Shown here: in pieces, positions 17,048 through 19,330 of the stretch
How the letters are laid out: every line of letters starts with the position of its first letter
How positions within the stretch are numbered: the first letter of the stretch is position 1
Source: Thermobispora bispora DSM 43833
GTDB taxonomy: Bacteria > Actinomycetota > Actinomycetes > Streptosporangiales > Streptosporangiaceae
Direction: 5' to 3'
Assembly: GCF_000092645.1 (NCBI RefSeq)
Contig: NC_014165.1
Span: 3,100,001-3,164,000, forward strand
Length of the DNA: 64,000 bases
The notes under the pieces: generated by a model
Seen by the model: only the letters and a program-made list of their open reading frames with translations
Databases searched by the model: none
What the model was told of the DNA's origin: nothing
Program-made: the position numbers and the translations under genes

Positions 17048-19330
17048 GTGACCCGGCAATCGTTCGCATGGGCCCCGGCGCGGGGACAGGCCGTGCTGCG
17101 GGCCCTGGAGTCCGCCGCCCGGGTGCTCACCACCCCGTTCCTGCCCGAGGACTACCTGGAGCTCTTCGACCCGCTGTGGTCGCTGGAGGAGCCGCGCGGC
17201 CGGATCGAGGCGGTGATCCCGGAGACCGCGGACGCGGCGACCCTCGTGATCCGGCCGAGCCGGGGGTGGCGGCCCCACCGCCCGGGACAGTGGGTGCGGA
17301 TCGGGGTCGAGATCCGGGGCAAGTACCACTGGCGTACCTTCTCGATCTCGTCACCTCCGGAGCGGGCCGACGGCCGTATCACGATCACGGTCAAGGCGAT
17401 CGCCGGCGGTCTGGTCTCGAACCACCTCGTCCGGCGCGCCGCCCCGGGGACGATCGTCAGGCTCAGCCGGCCGGAGGGCGAGTTCGTCCTCCCGGATCCG
17501 CTCCCGCCGCGCCTGCTCTTCCTCACCGCGGGCAGCGGCATCACCCCGGTGATGGCGATGCTGAGCAGCCTGTTCGCCCGGAGCACCGTGGACGGCGGCC
17601 CCACCGGGCCCGATGTGGTCCTCGTGCATTCGGCGCCCACCCGGGAGAACGTGATCTTCGGTGAGCGGCTGAGAAGGCTCGCCGGCCGATCCCCCGGGCT
17701 CCGGCTCGTCGAGCGGCACACCCGGGTCGAGGGCCGGCTCTCCCCCAGGGACCTGGCCGGCATCTGCCCGGACTGGACGGAACGCGACGTCTGGGCCTGC
17801 GGGCCGCCGGCGATGCTCGACGAGCTCGCGGCGTACTGGCCCGGGCCCGCGGATCGGCTGCACATGGAGCGGTTCCGCCTCGCGGTCGCACCGGTCACCG
17901 GCGCGGGCGGGACGGTCCGCTTCACCGCGAGCGGCCGCGAGGCGACGGCCGACGGCCGGACACCACTGCTCGCCGTGGGCGAGGCGGCCGGGGTGCTGAT
18001 GCCGAGCGGGTGCCGCATGGGCATCTGTCACGGCTGTGTGGTGCGGCTCCGCTCCGGCCGGGTGCTCGACCTGCGCACCGGCGTGGTCCACGGCGAGGAG
18101 GGCGACCTCATCCAGACCTGTGTGTCGGCCGCCGCGGGCCCCGTCGAAAATCGAGATCTGAAAGGGAGCGCACCCATGCCTGCCGTACCGGAACTGACCC
18201 CCGAGGAGCTGGAAGAGTTCGGCCGGGAGCTGGACCGGATCCGCACGGAGGTGATGACGAGCCTCGGCGAGGAGGACGCCCGGTACATCCGGGGCCTCGT
18301 CGCCACGCGGCGCGGGCTGGAGGTCGCCGGCCGGGCGCTGCTGTTCGCCTCCTGGCTGCCGCCCGCGTGGCTCGCCGGGACCGCCGCCCTCGCCACGGCG
18401 AAGATCCTCGACAACATGGAGATCGGCCACAACGTCCTGCACGGCCAGTGGGACTGGATGGGCGATCCGAAGATCCACTCCACGACCTGGGAGTGGGACA
18501 TCGTGGTCCCCGCCGACCAGTGGAAGCACTTCCACAACCTCGTCCACCACACCTGGACGAACGTGTTCGGCAAGGACCGGGACATCGGGTTCTCCGCGAT
18601 CCGGATCACCCCGGAGCAGCCCTGGCATCCGATCTTCCTGGCGCAGCCGCTCTACACCGCGCTGCTCGCGCTGTTCTTCGAGTACGGCGTCGCCATCTAC
18701 GACGCCGAGCTCGAGCGCGTGCCCTCCGGGAGGATGGACCTGAAGGAGGCCCTGCGCCGGCTCCGGGGCGTCGCGCGCAAGGCGCGACGGCAGATCGTGA
18801 AGGACTACGTGGCCTTCCCGCTGCTCGCCGGCCCGGCCTTCCTGCCGGTGCTGCTCGGCAACCTCACCGCGAACATGATCCGCAACGTCTGGGCCCACAC
18901 GATCATCTTCTGCGGCCATTTCCCGGACGGCGCCGTCTTCTTCACCGAGGAGCAGATCGAGAACGAGACCCGGGGTGAGTGGTACCTCCGCCAGATCCTC
19001 GGCTCGTGCAACATCAAGGGCGGCCGGCTCTTCCACATCATGACCGGCAATCTCAGCCACCAGATCGAGCACCATCTCTTCCCCGACATGCCGAGCAACC
19101 GCTACGCCCAGATCGCGCCCCGGGTCCGCGCGCTCTGTGCGCGGTTCGGCGTGCCGTACCACACCGGCTCCCTCCTCCGGCAGGCGGGCTCGGTGTGGAA
19201 GAACATCCTGCGGCTGGCGTTCCCCAGCCCGGCGGGCCGGCCGGAGCGGGCCACCGAGCCGGCGGCCCCGGAGACCGCGCCCGCCGCGGAGGGAGGGGCC
19301 GTCCACGGCCGGTACCAGGCGGTCGCCTAA
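17048..19330 (+). CDS. ferredoxin reductase joined in frame to fatty acid desaturase
   Basis: One uninterrupted 760-residue frame from GTG 17048 (GAGAAGG upstream). Residues about 1-375 are a flavodoxin-reductase with FAD site ([11 protein letters not shown], about 95), NAD(P) site ([11 protein letters not shown], about 161) and a plant-type 2Fe-2S centre (CRMGICHGC about 321-329 and QTCVSAA about 357), like mycobacterial Rv3230c. From Met 377 onward it is a DesA3-type membrane acyl-CoA desaturase. In relatives these are two adjacent genes. Here an AAAA run at 18147-18150 may have shifted the frame past the expected stop: with three A's the reductase would end VEIEI-stop at 18161. Either a true fusion, a frameshift mutation or a base-call error. 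Confidence 0.7.
18176..19330 (+). CDS. fatty acid (stearoyl-CoA type) desaturase, internal start
   Basis: 384 aa if translation begins at ATG 18176, which has its own Shine-Dalgarno (AAAGGGAG about 9 nt upstream). The three histidine boxes of membrane di-iron desaturases are present: HNVLHG, HNLVHH and HQIEHH (followed by [10 protein letters not shown]), with hydrophobic hairpins between them. It would introduce a cis double bond in acyl chains using electrons from the adjacent 2Fe-2S reductase, tuning membrane fluidity. The retained ribosome site implies a separate desaturase even if the upstream frame runs through. Confidence 0.8.

Follow-up and report, generated by a model that had tools for sequence, protein, structure and literature searches.

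In the deposited genome of Thermobispora bispora, a thermophilic bacterium of compost, a reductase frame opens into a fatty acid desaturase frame, raising the question of whether the joined frame encodes a single self-sufficient enzyme, serves as one of two outputs of a slippage site, or simply contains one base too many. From our analyses of the window (the whole 64,000-nucleotide stretch considered here) and of homologous loci, we conclude with high confidence that a single non-programmed extra base, whether artefact or private mutation, lies in an ordinary operon. Because the related gene pairs that we examined are separate, the joined frame is most likely neither a new kind of enzyme nor a switch, but the product of a slip in sequencing or of a mutation private to this lineage.

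The continuous frame and its two halves

As an earlier note on this DNA had described, with correct coordinates, the reductase frame enters the desaturase without a stop (Table 1). Pfam recognises FAD_binding_6, NAD_binding_1 and Fer2 at residues 84-366 of the product and FA_desaturase at residues 445-711. The first gene thus has the FAD, NAD and C-terminal Fer2 domains, and the second the FA_desaturase domain and histidine motifs, that are expected of a two-protein reductase-desaturase operon in Actinomycetota. Four reductase cysteines (C327, C332, C335 and C363) are invariant across the 47 sequences of our alignment A1. Neither half attains the cut-off of any NCBIfam model, the best scores being 112 bits against 383 for the reductase and 23 bits against 500 for the desaturase, and we found no published work naming this T. 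bispora desaturase gene. A second fatty acid desaturase is present in the T. bispora genome (L002, G000:C1:3705728-3706357); it is not close by the cut used in our survey.

Table 1 Coordinates of the features at the reductase-desaturase junction, numbered within the window
Feature	Position	Strand	Remarks
Continuous frame	17033-19330	+	GTG start at 17033, stop at 19330; 765 aa in the deposited sequence (ORF list)
Reductase gene, form seen in relatives	17033-18161	+	FAD_binding_6, NAD_binding_1, C-terminal Fer2; ends VEIEI-TGA with one A of 18147-18150 omitted
AAAA run	18147-18150	+	16 relatives have GAAATC at the homologous site
TGA, would-be reductase stop with one A fewer	18159-18161	+	Out of frame as deposited
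AAGGGAG, Shine-Dalgarno-like	18162-18168	+	7-nt spacer to the desaturase ATG
Fatty acid desaturase gene	18176-19330	+	Own ATG; 384 aa; histidine motifs GHNVLH, HNLVHH and HQIEHH

The deposited junction, which contains the AAAA run, is CCCGTCGAAAATCGAGATCTGAAAGGGAGCGCACCCATG, and its codons across the join read GTC GAA AAT CGA GAT CTG AAA GGG AGC GCA CCC ATG. With one A fewer they become GTC GAA ATC GAG ATC TGA, followed by 14 nt and then the desaturase ATG (18176-18178), so that the reductase would comprise 375 residues with the C-terminus ...AAAGPVEIEI. This alternative ending was proposed in the earlier note and is confirmed by reading the sequence, as is the Shine-Dalgarno motif ahead of the desaturase start; purine-rich stretches resembling AAGGGAG were also seen at many of the relatives' junctions (by eye, uncounted). 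The shorter reading goes beyond chance, since both its C-terminus and the position of its stop match those of relatives.

Junctions in related genomes

Homologous loci were sought in 40 relatives, in 394 genomes of the class, in 341 genomes of the family and in one scan of GTDB genomes. Among the matches listed, at least 158 of the 394 class genomes had a match at 1e-60 and at least 90 of the 341 family genomes had a match (counts which overlap, and which both include the window's own genome), while the GTDB scan gave 40 named loci. We sampled the loci returned by these searches together with 80 stretches chosen from the listed rows, the last 20 of which consisted of 17 rows with long open frames or matches starting near the join, and 3 re-fetches. 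The resulting 208 loci included four belonging to the window itself, and the 204 examined comprised 24 without a close desaturase, 14 without a reductase within the stretch, 7 with another arrangement, and 159 in which a reductase lies directly upstream of a close desaturase. A 90-base key reduced these 159 junctions to 150 distinct ones.

All 150 distinct junctions are split and none is fused, in a count made at the DNA level on part of the listed rows; the rows outside it include four that each cover both halves and contain one stop (G480:C8, G392:C67, G327:C1:2600336 and G367:C1). An earlier pass using another key similarly gave no fusion among 131 distinct junctions (140 in total). At each of these junctions the frames are separate, with their own stop and start, from which the deposited window differs by a single base, and the note's view that the homologous proteins are separate holds for the homologues examined. 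The note had also envisaged a plain fusion in which all close relatives would be in frame and lack an internal start; the split relatives contradict this and lead us to reject an ancient fusion, and the conserved joining expected of a natural fusion between an electron donor and a diiron enzyme is absent from all 150. Two candidates that appeared to span the join free of stops (G654 and G624) proved to be split in their DNA (L129/L208 and L130/L207). At 57 of the 150 junctions both genes occupy one frame and are separated by stops only, yet none of these is fused, which hints that separation is maintained.

The A run itself is likewise missing from these relatives: over the final 30 nt of the reductase and its stop, none of the 150 distinct junctions has AAAA. 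GAAATC occurs in the reductase tail at 17 junctions, at the homologous codons in 16 and elsewhere in one (L097). A relative from the same family (L101) reads CCCGTCGAAATCGAGCTGTGA, with AAA at the position of the window's AAAA.

Other gene orders were encountered among the loci surveyed. In a Sporichthya MAG (L055) and in Pseudonocardia eucalypti (L061) the order is reversed, with the desaturase preceding the reductase. The desaturase of Microbispora triticiradicis (L062) is among the closest (79% identity), and the accompanying reductase lies on the opposite strand about 2.8 kb away; the same arrangement in L134 (G476) probably represents the same record.

The reductase tail and the ferredoxin domain

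The end of the reductase is strongly conserved: of 150 sequences, 142 have G at position -7, 143 have I or L at -3, and 132 have D or E at -2. With the additional A, the window's VEIEI becomes VENRDL, which places N-R-D at conserved tail positions; omitting one A restores the tail of the family. The reductase of Thermomonospora echinospora (L041), modelled with a mean pLDDT of 79.6, ends in VEIDL, and the VEID of this ending (residues 373-376) is the final strand, so that in this model the conserved tail closes the ferredoxin domain as its terminal strand. We compared the L041 model with one of the window's fused frame up to residue 388, built from the same 20 alignment rows. The flavin/NAD part of the fused-frame model keeps high confidence, whereas blocks 291-320 score 68-73 (81-91 in the L041 model), blocks 321-370 score 46-66 (65-87 in the L041 model), and residues 373-388 fall below 50. 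With one model each, this is only suggestive of a lowering of modelled Fer2 confidence by the fused-frame tail.

The ferredoxin domain may nevertheless tolerate the new tail, as the Fer2 profile of Pfam continues to match the joined product above its cut-off, over positions 7-75 of 77. Altered reductase ends, or ends a few residues longer, are also found where the genes are still separate, in L104 (G574), L070 (Streptomyces sp. cf386) and L197 (G205), and our reading of their DNA suggests that changes at the reductase end can be fixed.

Origin and consequences of the additional base

The interpretation that we favour is an ordinary two-gene operon, in which the genes for a flavin/2Fe-2S reductase and, downstream of it, a membrane fatty acid desaturase would give two separate proteins, the reductase presumably handing electrons to the desaturase, as the domains and the known two-protein desaturases suggest. 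One surplus A within the last five reductase codons would shift the reductase stop out of frame and happen to open into the desaturase frame. DesA3 with its oxidoreductase Rv3230c, reportedly the subject of Chang and Fox 2006, offers a parallel. The acyl-CoA desaturase DesA3 and the NADPH oxidoreductase Rv3230c are described as a two-protein desaturase in the available text of one study (PMC5037126), and they resemble the present pair, by that description, in being a separate reductase and desaturase of actinobacterial origin, although the deposited T. bispora frames run together via one A. The reductase is also similar, including its C-terminal 2Fe-2S part, to phthalate dioxygenase reductase (2PIA) and to self-sufficient P450s (6KBH and 6LAA), all three being fold matches to the L041 model; unlike in the T. 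bispora pair, the partner of the 2PIA-type reductase is a dioxygenase and that of 6KBH and 6LAA a P450.

How the base arose is less certain. We consider it slightly more likely than not that the consensus of the 2010 assembly, a Sanger/454 hybrid, is in error here, and we lean towards such an error over a private mutation. A base-call error was among the three possibilities (fusion, slippage or error) listed in the earlier note, of which slippage and plain fusion fared poorly. A serious though less probable alternative is a genuine single-base insertion of recent date, confined to strain R51T or to the species. The cell would then make both the 765-aa chain and, by initiation at the intact internal start, free desaturase, while free reductase would be lost and the end of the ferredoxin domain altered. 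Four-base runs are rarely miscalled, which counts against a consensus error. According to the accessible text of the genome report (PMC3035289), the assembly combined 7.1x Sanger coverage with 1.1x 454 pseudo-reads, was finished and curated with GenePRIMP, and contained 50 reported pseudogenes; the predominance of Sanger reads and the finishing likewise count against an error, and the Sanger reads together with the pseudogenes lend some weight to a private insertion. The same text states an error rate below 1 in 100,000, and up to about 42 errors are therefore possible in 4,189,976 bases (PMC3035289). A simple coding-frame scan, which checked 56 of the window's 61 coding segments, revealed no other clear frameshift, the four segments that it flagged being by eye three repeat-rich linkers and one window edge. 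On this basis the assembly does not look error-rich, which again favours a private insertion, but the scan is blind to such events, given that the present site itself went unflagged. The altered reductase ends of L070, L104 and L197, and the continued recognition of Fer2, are also compatible with a genuine insertion; on the other side, none of the 150 distinct junctions is fused, and the insertion would cost the strongly conserved tail. Furthermore, the window's reductase sits on an end branch of 0.37 changes per column against a median of 0.17 (in a tree with weakly supported placement). Since the tail and TGA of the old frame have survived despite this long branch, an old frameshift is unlikely and any insertion would have to be recent. 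No second T. bispora sequence was found, the genus being represented by one genome in the genome collection; the best match in the GTDB genome scan had 79% identity, and viral contigs gave no match to the AAA or the AAAA form (both searches may omit near records).

Readings in which the joined frame has a function of its own appear much weaker. An established, selected fusion, forming a single self-sufficient reductase-desaturase, would explain why the frame is open throughout and why Fer2 and desaturase domains are both recognised in its product, and would be comparable to AlkB fused with ferredoxin and ferredoxin reductase. Such AlkB fusions exist according to the available text of PMC8918992, so that a true fusion here would vary a theme already known, with ferredoxin and ferredoxin reductase similarly N-terminal to a diiron membrane enzyme; the ferr_ferrR_AlkB proteins, however, are there a described class with shown activity, whereas the T. 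bispora join depends on one base and no examined relative is fused. Given, in addition, that the old-frame tail and stop are intact, that the desaturase retains a separate ATG and Shine-Dalgarno motif, and that the end strand of Fer2 would, judging from the models, be replaced, we regard an established fusion as very unlikely. It is also unlikely, if slightly less so, that the extra A is real in R51T and that a functional, self-sufficient reductase-desaturase of 765 aa is made alongside free desaturase from an internal start. Were this true, it would be a fusion enzyme caught at birth and made by one base, and a real A would provide a clean natural example of a one-step redox fusion. Our literature searches found no reductase-desaturase fusion of this kind, judged by titles or abstract openings, and caution is warranted, since the deposited frame would enter databases as a 'fused self-sufficient desaturase' unsupported by relatives.

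The earlier note had also treated the run as a switch, at which slippage on AAAA would give both the separate and the fused proteins. Both readings around the A run are sensible, and Thermus thermophilus dnaX slippage offers a precedent for a run of A with two products, but the dnaX run has nine A (PMC1088944, in its available text) and that of T. bispora four, unconserved. The same text reports that many genomes, a large proportion of those considered, show selection against slippage once a run of A or T is nine long; as the length threshold varies between bacteria and the effect is evident in AT-rich genomes only, this bears only indirectly on T. bispora (PMC1088944). A switch would also need deletions during transcription, which are rarely tied to homopolymers in the available text of PMC5574713, and AAAA is missing from all 150 distinct junctions. 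No stimulatory RNA structure stands out in the one 121-nt stretch folded (z +1.39, weaker than 185 of 200 shuffles). With a short run, no conservation and no RNA structure, we reject the switch as exceedingly improbable.

Elsewhere in the window, a minus-strand ORF at 14267-16525 contains a long P/S/V repeat linker, which misled the frame scan; we take its product, by eye, to resemble a secreted cellulase. A run of seven A lies at 4640-4646, and the window has 6 occurrences of AAAAA where 2.26 are expected, three of the six being inside that run.
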